64,000 nucleotides of DNA from an uncultured Selenomonas sp. (GTDB lineage Bacteria > Bacillota > Negativicutes > Selenomonadales > Selenomonadaceae): contig CAMVGU010000004.1 of NCBI GenBank assembly GCA_947167105.1, positions 62,001 through 126,000 on the forward strand. Reading direction: 5' to 3'. Within the stretch, counting starts at the first letter, position 1. Every line of letters begins with the position of its first letter. Shown in pieces: positions 10,955 through 18,712 of the stretch. A program made the translations under genes and the position numbers. The notes beneath the pieces are model-generated. The model did not search any database, was not told the DNA's origin, and saw nothing but the letters and a program-made list of their open reading frames with translations.

Positions 10955-10983
10955 TTGACGGCAGCCGCTCCAAATGCTATAAT
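10955..10983 (+). promoter_or_regulatory. tRNA-Leu promoter
   Basis: TTGACG (10955-10960), a 17-bp spacer and TATAAT (10978-10983), ending 24 bp before the tRNA. Near-consensus, as expected for a stable RNA gene. Confidence 0.85.
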
Positions 10984-11007: not shown

Positions 11008-11094
11008 GCCGGAGTGGCGGAATTGGCAGACGCAGCAGACTCAAAATCTGCCGTTGGCAACAACGTATCGGTTCAAGTCCGATCTTCGGCACCA
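11008..11094 (+). tRNA. tRNA-Leu (anticodon CAA)
   Basis: 87 nt including an encoded CCA end. The acceptor stem GCCGGAG pairs with CTTCGGC. The anticodon stem GCAGA/TCTGC encloses the loop CTCAAAA, giving anticodon CAA. A long variable arm (GTTGGCAACAAC region) marks a class II tRNA. It has its own promoter and terminator. Confidence 0.97.
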
Positions 11095-11106
11095 CTTTGA
11101 AAAATG

Positions 11107-11140
11107 AGGGTTCGCAGGTGTATCTGCGAGCCTTTTTCTT
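11107..11140 (+). terminator. Terminator of tRNA-Leu
   Basis: The stem GGTTCGCAG/CTGCGAGCC with a short loop is followed by TTTTTCTT. Confidence 0.85.
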
Positions 11141-11179: not shown

Positions 11180-12469
11180 ATGCCCTATTTCATAACTGCA
11201 CAAGAACTTGCCGAGCAGGGTACTATTCCGGCTGACCTACGCACTAACACCCAGCTTATATACAATAGTCCTGCTGCTCTGGATTTCAACTCCCCAGGGG
11301 CACAGGGCTTTGGCGTGAAGCGCGCCGGGCTTGCGCTGCCGGGCAGCATCATGCTGCTCATCTCGCCTGCCTGCTGCGGGCGCAATACGGCTGCCCTTGC
11401 GGCTCCACCCGATGCACAGGGAGTCAGCTATGGCGAGCGCTTTGCCTACCTGCTGCTGGACGAAAGCGATATTGTCACCGGCAGGCACCTGCAAAAAATC
11501 CCCCAGGCTGTGCAGGCTTTCATCGCCAGCCGTCCGGAACCTCCCACCTGCGTGCTGCTCTGCCTGACCTGCGTTGACGCCCTGCTGGGCACCGATATGG
11601 AGCGCATCGCCAGAAAGGCCAGCGCTGCAGCCGGTCTCCCCGTGCGCCCCTGCTATATGTACGCGCTGACCAGGGAGAGCATCCGCCCACCCATGGTGGC
11701 CGTGCGTGAAATGCTGTACTCCCTGCTGGAGCCTGCTCCCAAAAATGCACGTTCCTGCAATCTGCTGGGTTTCTTCGCTCCCCTGGCAGACGCCAGCGAG
11801 CTCTCCCCCCTGCTCAAAGCAGCAGGGCTCAGGACAATCAACGAGCTCAGCCGTCTCCGTACCTGGCAGGAATACCAGCAAATGGCCGCAGCCAATTTCA
11901 ACCTCGTGCTGAATTCGGAGGCACGCCGTGCCGCGCAAGCAATGCAAGAAAAACTGCAAATCCCCTTTATTGAGCTAAAGCGAGTCTATGGGCTGGAGCA
12001 GATTACGCACCAGTATCAGGCCCTGGCAAAACTGCTGGGAACAAGCTGGGAACTTGCCCCTTACGCCGATGCCGCCCGCACTGCTCAGGAAAAGTTCTGT
12101 GCCCGTCACAAAGATGAGATTTTTGGCATTGGCAGCCGCTTGAACGGCAACGCCTTTGAACTGGCCCTGACCCTAGCACGCGCAGGACTGACTGTTGCGG
12201 AAATCTACGGGCTGCCGCAGGCTGACGATTTCTTTTATATCAAAAAACTTGCCAAATTGTCACCTGAGACACGCATCTATACGAACCTGTCTGTCAGCAT
12301 GGCCTCATATAGCGAGAGCAGCAGCAAAGTGACCTTTGCCCTTGGCGCGGACGCCGTCTATTATCACCCTCACGCCAGGAGCCTCGCCTGGAACGAGGAA
12401 CGCCAGCCCTTCGGCTATCAGGCCGTGCAGGAATTATTCACGCAGATGGAGGCTGCTTGTCATGACTGA
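11180..12469 (+). CDS. Nitrogenase component 1-like protein, first pair, subunit 1 (NifD-like)
   Basis: Member of the nitrogenase component 1 oxidoreductase family (NifD/K, BchN/B, CfbD relatives), 429 aa. The N-terminal half holds the cluster-binding layout: SPACCGRNT (Cys65, Cys66) matches the second P-cluster-type Cys, and CVLLCLTCVDALLGTDM (Cys124, 128, 131) matches the third, which precedes the conserved G(T/D)D. No Cys precedes residue 65, so the first canonical ligand is missing. The start has a GAGGT site. It overlaps its partner by 8 nt, implying a stoichiometric complex. The substrate is unknown. A reductase of NifH type would be required and is not in the window. Confidence 0.75.
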   Translation: MPYFITAQELAEQGTIPADLRTNTQLIYNSPAALDFNSPGAQGFGVKRAGLALPGSIMLLISPACCGRNTAALAAPPDAQGVSYGERFAYLLLDESDIVTGRHLQKIPQAVQAFIASRPEPPTCVLLCLTCVDALLGTDMERIARKASAAAGLPVRPCYMYALTRESIRPPMVAVREMLYSLLEPAPKNARSCNLLGFFAPLADASELSPLLKAAGLRTINELSRLRTWQEYQQMAAANFNLVLNSEARRAAQAMQEKLQIPFIELKRVYGLEQITHQYQALAKLLGTSWELAPYADAARTAQEKFCARHKDEIFGIGSRLNGNAFELALTLARAGLTVAEIYGLPQADDFFYIKKLAKLSPETRIYTNLSVSMASYSESSSKVTFALGADAVYYHPHARSLAWNEERQPFGYQAVQELFTQMEAACHD

Positions 12470-13535
12470 TATCAAAGGACTGCGGCTCTACCTGCCGCCC
12501 TTCGCCCCCGATACCTCCGGCGCTGCCTCTGTGCTCTACCCGCTGGGGGGACTGGTCGTTATCGTCGATGCCGGCGGCTGTGCCGGCAATATCTGCGGCT
12601 TCGATGAGCCGCGTACAGACCTGCCTGCCCCCAGCGTGATGGCCAGCGCCGGCCTGCGGGATATGGATGCCATCATGGGACGGGATGACAGATTGCTCGC
12701 CAAAGTGAAAAAAGCCCTGCAGCAGGACGCAGACACAGCTTCGCCAACCTTCCCTTTCCTGGCCCTGGTTGGCACCCCCGTGCCCGCCGTTATCGGCACA
12801 GACCTCACGGCACTAGCACATCTGGCCGAAAAGCAGACCGGCCTGCCCTGCATTGCCGTGGCAAGCAATGGCATCCACGCCTACGACCGAGGGGCCAGCG
12901 CCGCCTTGCTTGCCCTGGTGCAAAAATTCACCAGACCCTGCCAGACTGTGCCCGGCAAACTGGGTGTCTTGGGCGTAACCCCGCTGGATTTAACCCTGTC
13001 CGAGCAAAACACCCTGCGCGAATCCCTGCTCACTTGTGGCTGGGAGCAAGTCTCCCTGCTGGGTGCAGACGGACTGGCAAGCCTCCGCGAAGCCGCCAGT
13101 TGCGAGCGCCTGCTGGTCGTCTCCCCCTCCGGCCTGGCCGCTGCTGAATATCTGCAAGAGAAGCTGGGACTTGCCTATGACACAGGTTTCCCTCAGGAGC
13201 TCACCTTCCCCCTCTGGACTGCCATCAAACAGCAGCTCCCCCCAGGGAGCAAGCGCCTGCTGATTATCCAGCAGCAATTTGCTGCCAATGCGCTGCGCGA
13301 TTTCCTGCGCACCTGCCTGCCGGAGGCGGAAATCATCTGCGGCACCTGCTTTGAACTGGTGCCAAAACTGGCGGAAGCAGGAGATTTTACCTTCCGCGAA
13401 GAAACAGAATTCCAGATTGCGGCGCAATCCTTCGATACCATCATCGGCGACAGCCTGCTAAGGCGGGCACTGCCCGGATTCAACGGTACTTGGCTTGATT
13501 ACCCCCATTTCGCCATCTCCGGCAAAACATACTGA
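12462..13535 (+). CDS. Nitrogenase component 1-like protein, first pair, subunit 2 (NifK-like)
   Basis: 357-aa partner of the preceding gene, same superfamily. DAGGCAGNICGFDEPR places Cys40 and Cys45 at the first cluster-binding region. RDMDAIMGRDDRLL matches the conserved helix after it. VGTPVPAVIGTDL lies where the third ligand should be, but has no Cys. The Rossmann-like second domain contains LGVLGVTPLDL. It resembles the NifK-like member of the second pair (17534-18712), sharing the DEPR and LGVTPLD motifs, so the pairs probably arose by duplication. A nitrogenase activity should not be assumed. Confidence 0.75.
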   Translation: MTDIKGLRLYLPPFAPDTSGAASVLYPLGGLVVIVDAGGCAGNICGFDEPRTDLPAPSVMASAGLRDMDAIMGRDDRLLAKVKKALQQDADTASPTFPFLALVGTPVPAVIGTDLTALAHLAEKQTGLPCIAVASNGIHAYDRGASAALLALVQKFTRPCQTVPGKLGVLGVTPLDLTLSEQNTLRESLLTCGWEQVSLLGADGLASLREAASCERLLVVSPSGLAAAEYLQEKLGLAYDTGFPQELTFPLWTAIKQQLPPGSKRLLIIQQQFAANALRDFLRTCLPEAEIICGTCFELVPKLAEAGDFTFREETEFQIAAQSFDTIIGDSLLRRALPGFNGTWLDYPHFAISGKTY

Positions 13536-13572
13536 GGAACTGGTAAGAAATAGATTTTAGTGGACAGTTCCT
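13535..13572. repeat. Short inverted-repeat element between the NifK-like gene and hypF
   Basis: AGGAACTG (13535-13542) and its complement CAGTTCCT (13565-13572) enclose 22 bases. A related element lies at 23549-23609; read in reverse it begins AGGAACTGTAGCGAAATA against AGGAACTGGTAAGAAATA here. In RNA it would form a hairpin just before the hypF ribosome site. Confidence 0.5.
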
Positions 13573-13584
13573 AAGGAGGACTTT

Positions 13585-15948
13585 ATGCCACTCTATCACA
13601 GTAAGGTCTACGGTATCGTGCAGGGCGTCGGCTTCCGTCCTTTTGTCAGCCGACTGGCTGCGGAGCATAAAATTCTTGGCAGTGTCTGCAACAAAGGGCC
13701 CTATGTGGAAATCTTCGCCCAGGGTACGGCTGAGTGCCTGCAGGATTTCTTTCGCGACTTAAAGGCCAGGCCACCTGAGCGGGCTGCCATCCTGAAGATT
13801 GATATAAACGAACTCACAGATGCAAGGGAAAACTACAGGCAATTCGAGATTATAGAGAGTGCCAAGGAGCGGGGAGACATCTTCGTGTCCCCGGATATAG
13901 CCACCTGTGACAAATGCCGGACAGAGCTCTTTGACCCTGAGAACCGCCGCTACCTGCATCCCTTCATCAACTGCACGGCCTGCGGGCCGCGCCTGACCAT
14001 ACTGGATTCCATGCCCTACGACCGCGAGCGCACCAGCATGGGCGAATTCCCCATGTGCGGGGCCTGCCGGACGGAGTACGAAGACCCCGCCAGCCGCCGC
14101 TATGATGCCCAGCCTGTCTGCTGCAATGACTGCGGGCCGGAGCTGTACCTGATTGGAGCAGAGGCTATCCGGGGAGCAAAGGCCCTTACCCGGGCGCGCC
14201 ACTGCCTTGCTGCAGGCGGTATTGTTGCCATCAAGGGCATCGGCGGCTTTCATCTTGCCTGTGATGCCAAAAACGCTGCCGCCGTGTCAAGGCTGCGGCA
14301 ACTGAAGCACCGCCCGGTCAAGCCCTTTGCCCTGATGTTCAGGGATATGGCCGCCATTGAGGGCGAATGCCTGGTGGAGCCGGGACAGGCTGAAATCCTC
14401 ACAGGCCACCAGAAACCCATTCTGCTGCTCAAACGCCGCGCAGACGGCACTGTAGCCGAAGCAGTCGCCCCCGGCAATCCGAAAATCGGTGTCATGCTGC
14501 CTTACGCTCCCGTGCAAATGCTGCTGTTCGACTATCCCGACGATGTGAAAAACATGACGGATGCGCTGGTGATGACCAGCGGCAATCCCTCCGGCGCCCC
14601 CATCTGCCGCAGTGATGAAGATGCCCTGGGCTCCCTCTCCGGCTTCTGCGACCTGATGCTCTCCCATAACCGCAAGATCAGGCTGCGAGCCGACGACTCC
14701 GTGCTGGACTGGCTGGATAGCGGCCCCTATATGATACGCCGCAGCCGGGGCTACGCCCCCCTGCCTGTCATGCTCTCCCGTGACTTTCAGGGCGAAGTCC
14801 TGGGCATCGGCGGGGAGTTGAAAAACACCTTCTGCATAGGGCGCGGCAACCTTTTCTACCCCTCGCCCTATATCGGCGACATGAGCGACCTGCGCACCCT
14901 GCAGGCCCTGAAAGAATCCATCAAGCGCCTGAGCGAGCTGCTGGAAACAAGCCCTGCGGCAGTCGCCTGTGACCTGCACCCCCGCTATAATACCCATAAA
15001 GTCGCGGAAGAACTGGGGCTGCCGCTGCTGGAGGTTCAGCACCATTACGCCCATATCCTCTCCTGCCTGGCTGAAAATGATTACGACCGGCCCGTTATCG
15101 GCATCTCCTTTGACGGCACCGGCTACGGCACGGACAGCACTATCTGGGGCGGCGAAATCCTCCAGGCTGATTACAACGGCTTCCGGCGCCTTGGCTCCAT
15201 CCAGCCTTTTCAGCAGCCGGGCGGCGACAAAGCCTCCAGGGAAGGCTGGCGCATTGCCACGGCAATGCTTTGGGAAGGGGAGCCTGACAGGGAAAGGCTT
15301 GCCGGCCTGACCGATAGGCTGGGATTATGCTCCCAAGAGGAACTTCACACCCAGTTTCTCTTGCTGGATAAGAATTTGAACACCATCAAATCCACCAGCG
15401 CCGGCCGCCTTTTCGATGCTGTCAGCGCCCTGCTGGGCATTCGCCGCATTTCCACCTTTGAGGGCGAAGCCTCCATGTACCTGCAATTCGCTGCCGAAGC
15501 CTATGAAAGCCGCTTCTGCAGCGCCATCCGCAGCGATATTGTCAGCCTGCAGCTTGCCAATTTTGCTGCCGACAGCCAAGCTGTACCAGACAGTAAACAG
15601 GAAGCAACGGCCTTCCGGCTGCCTACAGACCGGCTTTTCCGCTCTTTGCTGGAAAAACGTCTGGAGCCTGGAGCCGACATCCAGCAACTGGCCTACCTCT
15701 TTCATGCGGGCCTGGCTGCCCAGATTATCGCCGCCTGCCGGGAGGCTCGCCGGATTACCGGCCTCGAAACTGCAGCCCTCTCCGGCGGGGTCTGCCAAAA
15801 TACCCTGCTGATGCGCCTGCTGCTGCGCGGCCTGCAAGAGGACGGCTTCAACGTCCTGCGCCACCGTTTGATTCCTCCCAACGATGGAGGCATCTGCCTG
15901 GGGCAGGCCGTATATGCAATGCAGCAGCTTAATAACGGTAAGATTTAG
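13585..15948 (+). CDS. hypF: HypF carbamoyltransferase
   Basis: In [NiFe]-hydrogenase maturation HypF activates carbamoyl phosphate as a carbamoyl-adenylate and loads it on HypE, the source of the cyanide ligands on iron. The protein is complete at 787 aa. It has an N-terminal acylphosphatase domain (GIVQGVGFRPFV), two zinc fingers with Cys108/111/130/133 and 158/161/180/183, a YrdC-like ATP domain (LMFRDMAAIE region) and a Kae1-like domain with QHHYAH and FDGTGYG. An AGGAGG site precedes the ATG. HypE, its normal acceptor, is not nearby; the flanking genes are nitrogenase-like, which is unusual. Confidence 0.93.
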   Translation: MPLYHSKVYGIVQGVGFRPFVSRLAAEHKILGSVCNKGPYVEIFAQGTAECLQDFFRDLKARPPERAAILKIDINELTDARENYRQFEIIESAKERGDIFVSPDIATCDKCRTELFDPENRRYLHPFINCTACGPRLTILDSMPYDRERTSMGEFPMCGACRTEYEDPASRRYDAQPVCCNDCGPELYLIGAEAIRGAKALTRARHCLAAGGIVAIKGIGGFHLACDAKNAAAVSRLRQLKHRPVKPFALMFRDMAAIEGECLVEPGQAEILTGHQKPILLLKRRADGTVAEAVAPGNPKIGVMLPYAPVQMLLFDYPDDVKNMTDALVMTSGNPSGAPICRSDEDALGSLSGFCDLMLSHNRKIRLRADDSVLDWLDSGPYMIRRSRGYAPLPVMLSRDFQGEVLGIGGELKNTFCIGRGNLFYPSPYIGDMSDLRTLQALKESIKRLSELLETSPAAVACDLHPRYNTHKVAEELGLPLLEVQHHYAHILSCLAENDYDRPVIGISFDGTGYGTDSTIWGGEILQADYNGFRRLGSIQPFQQPGGDKASREGWRIATAMLWEGEPDRERLAGLTDRLGLCSQEELHTQFLLLDKNLNTIKSTSAGRLFDAVSALLGIRRISTFEGEASMYLQFAAEAYESRFCSAIRSDIVSLQLANFAADSQAVPDSKQEATAFRLPTDRLFRSLLEKRLEPGADIQQLAYLFHAGLAAQIIAACREARRITGLETAALSGGVCQNTLLMRLLLRGLQEDGFNVLRHRLIPPNDGGICLGQAVYAMQQLNNGKI

Positions 15949-15969
15949 AACCAGAAAGGAAGCCTTTCT

Positions 15970-16185
15970 ATGTGTTTAGGAATACCTGCCAAAGTAGTAA
16001 GCCTCGATGGTGACATGGCCCTTATCGATGCCTCCGGGGTCAAGCGCGAAGTCTCCGCTGCACTTCTTGCGGATATAGATCCCGGTGACTACGTCCTTGT
16101 CCATGCCGGTTTTGCCCTGGCCAAAATCACAGATGCAGAGGGGCAGGAAACTGAAAAACTGCTTTCGGAACTAGCGGAGGACTGA
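15970..16185 (+). CDS. hypC: HypC/HupF-family hydrogenase maturation chaperone
   Basis: A small 71-aa chaperone that, with HypD, carries the Fe(CN)2CO unit to the hydrogenase large subunit. The essential N-terminus MCLGIPAKV, with Cys2 after Met removal, is intact. The OB-fold pattern ends with DYVLVHAGFALAKI, as in the family. It begins 21 nt after hypF and ends 2 nt before the next nitrogenase-like gene, so it is firmly inside this operon. HypD is absent from the window. The chaperone may serve a remote hydrogenase or a local cofactor. Confidence 0.93.
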   Translation: MCLGIPAKVVSLDGDMALIDASGVKREVSAALLADIDPGDYVLVHAGFALAKITDAEGQETEKLLSELAED

Positions 16186-16187
16186 CC

Positions 16188-17531
16188 ATGCCCCTGCTTT
16201 CCCATGCCCCTCACCCTGCCTGGCAGCGGCTGGCTGATGCCGACCCTGCTGCCTTTTTCCCCCACAATCTCGAATATTCCTGCCCCGCCCGGGGCAACTG
16301 GAACATCGTGCATACGGGTATGCTTGTGCCGGAAGCCCACCAGATTTATGTCTGTGCTTCCGGCTGTCTGCGGGGCGTCATTCTCACCGCCGCCGAGATG
16401 GGCGAAACCTACCGCCGCCGCTTTTCCACGGTGGAGCTTTTGGAGCGTGACCTGCTGCTGACCGATAATGAGCAACTGCTGATTGACGGCGTCACGGATA
16501 TTCTGGAAAAACTTAAAAAAAACCAGGGGCTGCCCCCCGCAGTGCTGCTCTTTACCGCCTGCTTCCATCATTTTATCGGCACCGACTTGAGCTATGTTTA
16601 CAGTAAGCTGCGCAAACGCTGGCCGGGAATCGACTTTGCCGAATGCTGCATGGACCCCATCCGCCAGTCCAAGAGCCTGAAGCCAGAGGAGCGCCTGCGC
16701 CTGGAAATTGCCCGGCTCTGGCCGGAGCAGTCTGCCACACCCAAACGCGCCGTCTGCTTCGGCAGCAACCTGCCCCTGTCAAAAGACTCAGAAATCTATG
16801 CCCTCTGCCGTGCCGCGGGCTGGGAACTGCTGGACTGGGCTGCCTGCCAAACCTATGCAGACTTTCAGCAGCCTGGCAGCGCCTCACTCTACATCTGGCA
16901 GCACCCCCACACATTCCCTGCAATCCGATGGCTTACAGAAAATCGTGAGCACAAGGCAATCTATCTGCCCCAGGTCTGGCGCAGCGAAGAACTGCTGCAG
17001 GAATTCACGGAACTGGCGGATGAATTGGGCCTTGCACTGCCGGATTTTGCCCCTGCCCAAGAAAGGGCACTCAAAGCCTGGCAGGAACTGGGCAAGGAAC
17101 TCGGCTCCCTGCCCATAACATTGGACTACACCTTTACCCTGGAACCCTTCAGCCTGGCCCGCCTGCTCATCGAGCAGGGCTTCCGGCTAGTGCGCATCTA
17201 TGCAGATGCAGTCTCCCCGGAGACCCGCGAGGATTTCCTCTGGCTGCAGGAGCACGCGCCTGATATCGAGCTATGGTCTGCCAAGCATCCTGATCTGCGA
17301 CTCTCTGAGAACCGTACCTTGCCCGGCAAAAGCCTGGCCCTGGGCCAGAAGGCGGCCTACTATACAGGCACTCCTTATTTCGTAGATATAATAGACGGTG
17401 CGGGCATCACCGGCTGGGCAGGACAGGAGCGCCTGGCCCGGATTATATCAGAGGCCGCCCGCAGCCCCAAAGACACCCAGTCCCTTATTGCACGTAAAGG
17501 CTGGGGCGGCCCCTGCGCCCTGGAGGATTGA
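16188..17531 (+). CDS. Nitrogenase component 1-like protein, second pair, subunit 1 (NifD-like)
   Basis: 447-aa protein of the same superfamily, with a fuller set of cluster Cys than the first pair: EYSCPARGNWN (Cys32), YVCASGCLRG (Cys56, Cys60) and FTACFHHFIGTDL (Cys125). This order matches the three P-cluster-region ligands of NifD-type subunits. AECCMDPIRQ (Cys153, Cys154) is a further Cys pair. The ATG follows hypC by 2 nt. Partner gene and operon position imply a hetero-oligomeric metalloenzyme or a scaffold. No His/Cys cofactor ligand could be assigned with confidence, so the active-site cofactor is unknown. Confidence 0.75.
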   Translation: MPLLSHAPHPAWQRLADADPAAFFPHNLEYSCPARGNWNIVHTGMLVPEAHQIYVCASGCLRGVILTAAEMGETYRRRFSTVELLERDLLLTDNEQLLIDGVTDILEKLKKNQGLPPAVLLFTACFHHFIGTDLSYVYSKLRKRWPGIDFAECCMDPIRQSKSLKPEERLRLEIARLWPEQSATPKRAVCFGSNLPLSKDSEIYALCRAAGWELLDWAACQTYADFQQPGSASLYIWQHPHTFPAIRWLTENREHKAIYLPQVWRSEELLQEFTELADELGLALPDFAPAQERALKAWQELGKELGSLPITLDYTFTLEPFSLARLLIEQGFRLVRIYADAVSPETREDFLWLQEHAPDIELWSAKHPDLRLSENRTLPGKSLALGQKAAYYTGTPYFVDIIDGAGITGWAGQERLARIISEAARSPKDTQSLIARKGWGGPCALED

Positions 17532-17533
17532 CC

Positions 17534-18712
17534 ATGAAACAGACAGCCCGCATCATCTCCACCTACTCCGCCGACAATTTCGGCGTCTGTTCCGCCCTGT
17601 ATGAAATGGGGGGGCTTATCGTGATGCACGACCCCTCCGGCTGCAACTCCACCTACACCACCCATGATGAGCCGCGCTGGTACAGCCGGGACAGCCTGAT
17701 TTACATCTCTGCCCTGACGGAGCAGGATGCCGTACTGGGCCGCGACCAGCGCCTGATAGAGGAAATCTGCGACGTAGCCCTGACACATAAGCCCCGCTTC
17801 ATCTGCGTAATTCCTTCCCAGATTGCCTTCCTGATAGGCACCGACCTCAAAGCCATCTGCCGCCTTATAGAAAAAAGAACCGGTATTACCTCCTTCACCC
17901 TGCCCACCAACAGCATGCACTACTATGAGCAGGGTATTTACTATGGGCTGGAGGAACTTGCCAGGCGGGTCATACAGCACACAGGGCAAGCAGTTTCTCA
18001 CAATCCCCCAAAACTACAGCTTCGCCTCAATCTCCTGGGCGTTACGCCTCTGGATTTCGGGCCTGACGGCTGGCTGCCCGCCTGGAAAACTTGGCTCAGG
18101 CAGAACAATTTTCATCTGCAAAGCTGCTGGGCCATGAATTCCAGCCTTGACGAGATCCTGCGTTCCGGCAGTGCTGACGTAAATCTGGTCGCCTCCTATG
18201 GCGGTCTTGGTGCCGCCCGCCTGCTCTGGCGGGAACTGGGGCAGCCCTATGTCTGCGGCCTGCCTTTGGGGCCTTTGGCTCCCACCCTTGCACAGGCAAT
18301 ACAAAAAGCAGGAGAGACCAAGCAGCCTCTCCTGCCTTATGCTGAACAAACAAGCTGCATCCCTGCCAATGCGCCAAAGCAATTTATCATCGGCGAAACC
18401 ATCCTGGCCGAATCGCTGGCTGCAGCCCTGGAACTCTCCGGCGCAGGCCATTTCCGGGCCATCATTCCCGTTGAGACAGACAATGAACTTTTGCGCTCCG
18501 ACTCGCTGCGCCTGACAGACGAATGTGAATTGGAGCCTGTGCTGAAAGACGCCAAAACCATCATCGCAGATCCCCTCTATCAGGCCATCTGCCCCGCCTC
18601 AGCACACTTTCTGCGCCTGCCCCATATGGGCTTTTCCGGCCGTCTTTACCAAAAAGAACTGAGCAACCTGCTCCAAGACTTTCCCGACTTGCTGCACAGG
18701 CTACCTACTTGA
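17534..18712 (+). CDS. Nitrogenase component 1-like protein, second pair, subunit 2 (NifK-like)
   Basis: 392-aa partner of the preceding gene. YSADNFGVCSALYEMGG (Cys19) and DPSGCNSTYTTHDEPR (Cys37) give two cluster-region Cys. VIPSQIAFLIGTDL has Ser where a third Cys would sit. LTEQDAVLGRDQRLIEEI matches the helix after the first motif, and LGVTPLDFG is shared with the first pair's subunit. The ATG lies 2 nt past the upstream stop, with GGAGGA before it. The end overlaps the convergent kinase gene by 8 nt, so there is no room for a separate terminator. Confidence 0.75.
   Translation: MKQTARIISTYSADNFGVCSALYEMGGLIVMHDPSGCNSTYTTHDEPRWYSRDSLIYISALTEQDAVLGRDQRLIEEICDVALTHKPRFICVIPSQIAFLIGTDLKAICRLIEKRTGITSFTLPTNSMHYYEQGIYYGLEELARRVIQHTGQAVSHNPPKLQLRLNLLGVTPLDFGPDGWLPAWKTWLRQNNFHLQSCWAMNSSLDEILRSGSADVNLVASYGGLGAARLLWRELGQPYVCGLPLGPLAPTLAQAIQKAGETKQPLLPYAEQTSCIPANAPKQFIIGETILAESLAAALELSGAGHFRAIIPVETDNELLRSDSLRLTDECELEPVLKDAKTIIADPLYQAICPASAHFLRLPHMGFSGRLYQKELSNLLQDFPDLLHRLPT

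Follow-up and report, generated by a model that had tools for sequence, protein, structure and literature searches.

The 64,000-nucleotide stretch of uncultured Selenomonas sp. DNA analyzed here (contig CAMVGU010000004.1, positions 62,001 to 126,000; hereafter the window) contains an operon of six genes in which hypF and hypC lie between two pairs of genes for distant relatives of nitrogenase component 1. We refer to the first pair as D1 and K1 and to the second as D2 and K2. All six open reading frames are intact, are read from the forward strand and are tightly packed between positions 11180 and 18712 (Table 1). D1 and K1 overlap by 8 nucleotides at the K1 ATG, and gaps of 49, 21 and 2 nucleotides separate K1 from hypF, hypF from hypC and hypC from D2. 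K2 begins either at an ATG 2 nucleotides after D2 or at an alternative TTG at 17528 that overlaps D2. The order, coordinates, strand and spacing given for these genes in an earlier sequence-only reading of this DNA agree with our open reading frame and profile analysis. As described below, this operon represents a reduced version of a conserved gene cluster that most likely encodes a HydG-independent pathway of [FeFe]-hydrogenase maturation, as judged from gene order and distribution.

Table 1. Features of the operon and of related loci; positions refer to the window unless a locus is named.
Feature	Position	Strand	Basis
D1, NifD/NifE-like component-1 subunit, 429 residues	11180..12469	+	PF00148, 102 bits
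K1, D1's partner, component-1-like, 357 residues	12462..13535	+	PF00148, 51 bits
hypF, carbamoyltransferase HypF of cluster type, 787 residues	13585..15948	+	TIGR00143, 736 bits (cut-off 466)
hypC, HypC chaperone, 71 residues, essential Cys2 (MCLGIP)	15970..16185	+	TIGR00074, 75 bits
D2, second component-1-like subunit, 447 residues	16188..17531	+	PF00148, 24.9 bits, under cut-off
K2, D2's partner, 392 residues from ATG	17534..18712	+	PF00148, 91 bits
Sigma-70-like promoter match, 11/12, extended -10	10955..10983	+	Consensus scan only; precedes tRNA-Leu
tRNA-Leu(CAA)	11008..11094
Terminator-like hairpin	11106..11135
HypC-HypD fusion	L057, 8752..10026
HypC-HypD fusion	L058, 8894..10168
HypC-HypD fusion	L059, 8953..10212
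HypC-HypD fusion	L060, 7820..9070

Component-1-like and Hyp proteins of the operon

The Pfam cut-off for PF00148 (Oxidored_nitro) is 28.6 bits, which D1, K1 and K2 pass and D2 just misses; D2 can nonetheless be placed securely in the component-1 superfamily by synteny and profile. The AlphaFold models of D1 and D2 fit this assignment. For D1 (predicted local distance difference test score, pLDDT, of 86) the closest solved folds are nitrogenase and NifEN subunits, and for D2 (pLDDT 82) they are Fe-nitrogenase, NifEN and DPOR, with a match probability of 1.00 to nitrogenase/NifEN/DPOR folds for both models. By sequence, NifE is the closest solved relative of D1, K1 and D2.

None of the four proteins, however, passes the nitrogenase, NifEN or DPOR equivalog models of NCBIfam. 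The best nifD, nifK or N2ase-alpha scores are 20–36 bits against cut-offs of at least 427 bits, and D1 reaches 64.5 bits against a nifE cut-off of 505. Proteins of the conserved cluster lie far under the curated NifE, NifN and NifH cut-offs, and neither NifB nor NifX was seen in it. DPOR/COR (BchNB/BchYZ), CfbCD and methylthio-alkane reductase are likewise NifH-dependent members of the component-1 superfamily, and D2 resembles BchN/B in fold, but the cluster falls below their cut-offs and has no tetrapyrrole- or sulfur-metabolism neighbours. Membership of the classical nitrogenase, NifEN, DPOR or F430 families was rejected on these cut-offs. The cofactor-ligating cysteine (NifD Cys275, NifE VCSKAM) has no cysteine counterpart in D1 or D2, in a region where the alignment is weak.

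Residue conservation was counted over 41–89 homologues per family. Cys66, Cys128 and Cys131 of D1 are present in 79/79 homologues and Cys65 and Cys158 in 78/79; K1 Cys40, D2 Cys60 and Cys125, and K2 Cys37 are invariant, and D2 Cys56 is kept in 68/71. These cysteines suggest that each D/K pair may hold an Fe–S cluster at its interface. Conservation is equally high in the Hyp proteins: HypC Cys2 (78/78), the HypD cysteines (79/79), the C-terminal PRIC of HypE where cyanide is formed (73/76) and the zinc-finger cysteines of HypF (84/84), whose other motifs are also conserved. The NifH1 and NifH2 proteins found in fuller copies of the cluster have the P-loop and both cluster cysteines, the latter kept in 89/89 NifH1 homologues. 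HypF and HypC of the window, as well as HypD and HypE of the cluster, score above their cut-offs (NCBIfam TIGR00143 and TIGR00074 for the first two), and with the conserved PRIC, Cys2 and HypD cysteines they belong to the HypCDEF assembly.

A tRNA-Leu(CAA) gene lies directly 5' of the operon, with a terminator-like hairpin between it and D1. The strong promoter-like match upstream of the tRNA may or may not serve the operon. We considered a recent foreign island and rejected it: GC content is 0.587 in the cluster and 0.559 in the rest, and third-position GC resembles that of the neighbouring genes except in hypC.

A conserved cluster in several phyla

Loci for comparison were taken from HypC matches in 150 related genomes. 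The same gene order, with nifH1, hypD and hypE in addition, occurs in more than 20 genomes, and the full cluster reads nifH1-D1-K1-hypF-hypC-hypD-hypE-(nifH2)-D2-K2. The second nifH is found in Megasphaera-type genomes, either before D2 or after K2, and several relatives have a D1-K1 fusion. A D1 profile search of named genomes, many of which are metagenome-assembled, returned 483 loci in several phyla, of which 80 were kept. This search places the cluster in Selenomonas, Mitsuokella, Schwartzia and Megasphaera; in Clostridium ljungdahlii (locus L126), C. ragsdalei, C. carboxidivorans and C. drakei; in Blautia, Roseburia faecis, Coprococcus comes, Anaerobutyricum hallii and Eubacterium ramulus; and in Coriobacteriaceae, Atopobiaceae, Lentisphaeria, one member of the Spirochaetaceae and one of the Synergistaceae. 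The conserved order is seen in Selenomonadaceae, Megasphaera, Clostridium, Lachnospiraceae, Coriobacteriia, Lentisphaeria and Spirochaetes. Its recurrence in dozens of genomes shows that the arrangement is not due to chance. The sequence-only reading had allowed that the linkage might be confined to this strain, which is not so given its presence in many genomes over several phyla. That reading also found no nifH, hypD or hypE, and indeed these genes and hyd genes are absent from the rest of the 64-kb window, but the statement does not extend to the full clusters, which carry all three.

Although the cluster shares equivalog-level HypF, HypD and HypE with [NiFe]-hydrogenase maturation, along with a HypC that has the catalytic residues, it differs in its nitrogenase-like operon and its own HypD clade. 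The HypDs of the cluster, among them seven labelled 'other' in the tree that also come from cluster loci, group together to the exclusion of NiFe-type HypDs; support for this clade is 100/100, and its branch is 1.35 changes per site long. No hypA, hypB or NiFe subunit gene, the linkage expected of [NiFe]-hydrogenase maturation loci, was found at the cluster loci inspected (L039 and L068) or in the window operon. HypC-HypD fusions of ∼420 residues, with long branches in the HypD tree, occur in four genomes (G108, G028, G027 and G143; Table 1).

The single hypD of the window genome lies on another contig (C8), in a run with hypC, hypE, hypA, hypB and a [NiFe]-hydrogenase, where hypA, hypB and the hydrogenase were recognized by reading translations; hypF was not seen in the stretch of C8 examined. 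The earlier observation that no hydrogenase and no hypA, hypB, hypD or hypE is near the operon is therefore correct locally and does not hold for the genome. The C8 HypD groups with HypDs of its own genus, outside the cluster clade. The separate clade implies that the cluster normally carries its own specialized HypD and that the window strain would have to borrow the HypD of C8. HydA, HydE and HydF are encoded on separate contigs of this genome, and HydG is absent. In ∼1.3 Mb of the 3.15-Mb genome plus the window, the sole NifH was found on contig C38, adjoining the component-1 pair of a methylthio-alkane reductase (the D subunit scores 824 bits to PDB 9fmg). The C38 cluster (L181, 2631–9985) consists of a Cys/Met-metabolism pyridoxal phosphate enzyme, cysteine synthase, a NifX-like protein, a NifB-like radical S-adenosylmethionine protein, NifH, D and K.

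Association with [FeFe]-hydrogenase genes and exclusion of HydG

Of 88 cluster loci annotated by means of profiles and reference proteins, not all of them independent and some truncated, 41 have TM1266 within 4 kb, 16 have hydF, 13 have hydE and 1 has hydA; none has hydG within this distance. TM1266 corresponds to TIGR03959, the 'iron-only hydrogenase system putative regulator'. Locus L198 has the order hydA-nifH1-D1-K1-hypF-hypC-hypD-hypE-TM1266-D2-K2-hydF-hydE, in which HydA is of group A6, and L134 reads TM1266-hydF-aspA-hydE-nifH2-D2-K2-nifH1-D1-K1-hypF-hypC-hypD-hypE. The aspA gene, which encodes an aspartate ammonia-lyase-type protein, stands between hydF and hydE in both L134 and L147. 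Several Lentisphaeria loci have the order TM1266-hydE-nifH2-D2-K2-nifH1-D1-K1-hypF-hypC-hypD-hypE. Ammonia-lyase genes are also found close to the hyd cluster in the canonical maturation gene group (PMC11736057), which the TM1266/hydF/aspA/hydE company of the cluster resembles, minus hydG. The cluster has no conserved metabolic gene; its recurrent neighbours are H-cluster maturation genes.

To compare the distributions of the cluster and HydG, we used the 150 related genomes (Negativicutes) and an even sample of 341 Clostridia, scoring HydG as absent when below the curated profile cut-off. D1 is present in 24 of the 150 genomes (in one of them a contig end truncates the gene) and HydG in 91, and no genome has both. 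Among HydF-bearing Negativicutes, 89 have only HydG, 23 only the cluster, none both and 10 neither (Fisher 2e-17, ignoring shared ancestry); the corresponding numbers for HydF-bearing Clostridia are 207, 10, 0 and 14 (Fisher 2e-11, with the same proviso). HydA is found in 24/24 cluster-bearing Negativicutes and HydE with HydF in 23/24, the window genome included, and HydF is found in 10/10 of the sampled cluster-bearing Clostridia. HydG itself is found in 0/24, 0/10 and, among named cluster genomes, 2/45, so that the exclusion spans phyla (43/45 without HydG). Both states also occur within single genera. In genus g1, the window genome has the cluster and G001, G002, G003 and G005 have HydG without it; in genus g27, G031 and G053 differ in the same respect from G067. 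We abandoned the notion that the cluster stands in for HydE as well as HydG, since HydE is present in 23/24 cluster genomes. HydF, often with HydE, is also seen without HydG or D1, in G013, G029/G075/G082, G104, G109 and G111 and in about 11 Clostridia such as G336, G354, G473, G476 and G526.

Proposed role and alternatives

The linkage to hydE, hydF, TM1266, aspA and hydA, together with the exclusion of hydG, points to the H-cluster as the end product and to the nitrogenase-like proteins as maturases. Since these genomes keep HydE and HydF but not HydG, the new genes are expected to provide a synthon that HydE can use. Compared with HydE/HydF/HydG maturation, the predicted end product would be the same and HydE, HydF, TM1266 and aspA are retained, often in the same run, whereas HypCDEF and NifH/D/K-like proteins are present instead of HydG. 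This pathway-level role is strongly supported by gene neighbourhoods, distribution and intact catalytic residues; the chemistry and the order of steps are inferred.

It is established for [NiFe]-hydrogenase maturation that carbamoyl phosphate is the source of the cyanide made by HypF and HypE and that HypCD assemble Fe(CN)2CO; nitrogenase-type enzymes also reduce cyanide. In the proposed pathway, HypF and HypE would likewise convert carbamoyl phosphate to cyanide ligands and HypC-HypD would hold iron with its CN- and CO ligands. The NifD/K-like pairs, with electrons from ATP-dependent NifH, would produce or remodel this unit to give the CO/CN-ligated iron synthon otherwise made by HydG from tyrosine, and HydE and HydF would use it to build and insert the [2Fe] subcluster. 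Each NifH/D/K set could carry out one step, making CO, remodelling the iron unit or both; alternatively, the sets could act as NifEN-like scaffolds. NifH Fe proteins alone are able to reduce CO2 to CO (PMC9571451), and this activity, taken with the reduction of cyanide by nitrogenases, suggests that NifH/D/K may produce CO or remodel the iron unit. Canonically, HydG splits tyrosine into CO and CN- and provides HydE with an Fe(Cys)(CO)2(CN) synthon; the product of HydE then goes to HydF (PMC11736057).

Several points weigh against a maturation role. Whereas HypCD makes Fe(CN)2CO, HydG makes Fe(CO)2CN, and a hypothetical conversion, which would need CO and reduction, is required. We tentatively suggest, at somewhat less than even confidence, that the nitrogenase-like complexes remodel HypCD-bound Fe(CN)2CO into HydE's Fe(CO)2CN synthon, for instance if NifH drives the reduction of CO2 to CO and a cyanide is removed or transferred. 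The window copy either lost nifH, hypD and hypE or never acquired them, and here NifH and HypD/HypE would have to act in trans. Two Clostridium genomes, C. drakei and C. thailandense, have the cluster together with HydG, and in G015 the cluster is accompanied by HydA, with HydE and HydF not found. Finally, 24 HydF-bearing genomes have neither HydG nor a full D1, and only a few are explained: G268 and G495 have a HydG fragment at a contig end, and the G004 contig extends only ∼0.5 kb beyond hydF, a stretch with a PIN-type gene, and stops at the place that HydG occupies in its relatives. In G421, hydE-nifH2-D2-K2 is followed by hydF-TM1266 (L190, 2429–11444). This locus, which has no D1, K1 or hyp genes close by, may be a reduced or split form of the system. 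The remaining genomes possibly reflect assembly gaps or a further route to CO and CN.

A narrower role is that the cluster only supplies free CO (e.g. from CO2) or cyanide to HydE and HydF, or protects against these gases, with the D/K proteins not acting on an iron synthon. This accords with CO2 reduction by Fe proteins alone and with the ∼1% activation reported for HydE and HydF without HydG, which is higher with added CO or CN- (PMC9431212). We consider it unlikely because HypCDEF is retained as a whole, and two of its members, HypC and HypD, bind the iron and do not release ligands. It is similarly improbable that the window copy is a decaying, functionless remnant, an idea that leaves the role of the full cluster elsewhere unaffected. 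The absence of nifH1, hypD and hypE from the operon would fit decay, but the six open reading frames are intact, most products are 40–60% identical to their homologues, the conserved cysteines are kept, and the genome retains HydA, HydE and HydF while lacking HydG.

The sequence-only reading had proposed that a CN/CO-type modification or an iron carrier serves a nitrogenase-like enzyme. Its linkage of Hyp and nitrogenase-like proteins as a functional unit stands, and is widespread, but the purpose it assigned is probably wrong in view of the hyd linkage and hydG exclusion. In its fuller form, a new nitrogenase-like enzyme would have its own cofactor with CN/CO-ligated iron made by HypCDEF, and hydE and hydF would be neighbours only through shared anaerobic regulation. 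Two complete NifH/D/K-type sets with conserved cysteines favour such an enzyme, which nevertheless seems very improbable: the recurrent neighbours are maturation genes rather than a conserved metabolic gene, the exclusion of HydG is left unexplained, and D1 and D2 lack a cysteine opposite NifE VCSKAM in these weak alignments. That ordinary [NiFe]-hydrogenase maturation genes were displaced into an unrelated nitrogenase-like operon, as the sequence-only reading allowed should hypDEAB and a hydrogenase lie elsewhere, is literally compatible with the C8 genes, the single hypD and the hypF unseen there, but is contradicted by dozens of clusters with their own hypC/D/E/F, by the distinct, long-branched HypD clade and by C. 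ljungdahlii, which has HypCDEF with HypA and HypB undetected (PMC9431212), and we regard it as exceedingly unlikely.

The predicted HydG-independent pathway bears on a published gap. Di Leonardo et al. (2022) found HydE and HydF without HydG in 5/8 acetogenic clostridia, gave no firm explanation and considered unidentified mechanisms of ligand incorporation (PMC9431212). C. ljungdahlii and its relatives have [FeFe]-hydrogenases, HydE and HydF with HydG undetected, and their HypF-C-D-E, on adjacent locus tags without HypA or HypB, are listed as NiFe maturases (PMC9431212). The text of a C. autoethanogenum transposon study on CO does not mention nitrogenase-like genes (PMC9004356). Our literature search, which did not reach subscription papers or preprints, found no published description of the cluster, in keeping with the earlier remark that no such layout was known.

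As predicted from genome comparison, the cluster very probably represents a second, hitherto undescribed route to the [FeFe]-hydrogenase active site in bacteria without HydG, an enzyme so far regarded as essential. It would explain the HydG gap in acetogenic clostridia and would mean that important hydrogen producers of the gut (Blautia, Roseburia, Coprococcus, Anaerobutyricum and Megasphaera) and the gas fermenters C. ljungdahlii and C. carboxidivorans use a second, unrelated route; the cluster is also present in rumen bacteria. It would link three metallocofactor systems thought to be separate, those of nitrogenase, [NiFe]-hydrogenase and [FeFe]-hydrogenase, and would give a new gene set for hydrogenase production. 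If the remodelling of HypCD-bound iron is correct, [NiFe]- and [FeFe]-hydrogenases would draw their diatomic ligands from a common biosynthetic source across a large group of gut and acetogenic bacteria, and relatives of nitrogenase would gain a new role as organometallic maturases.

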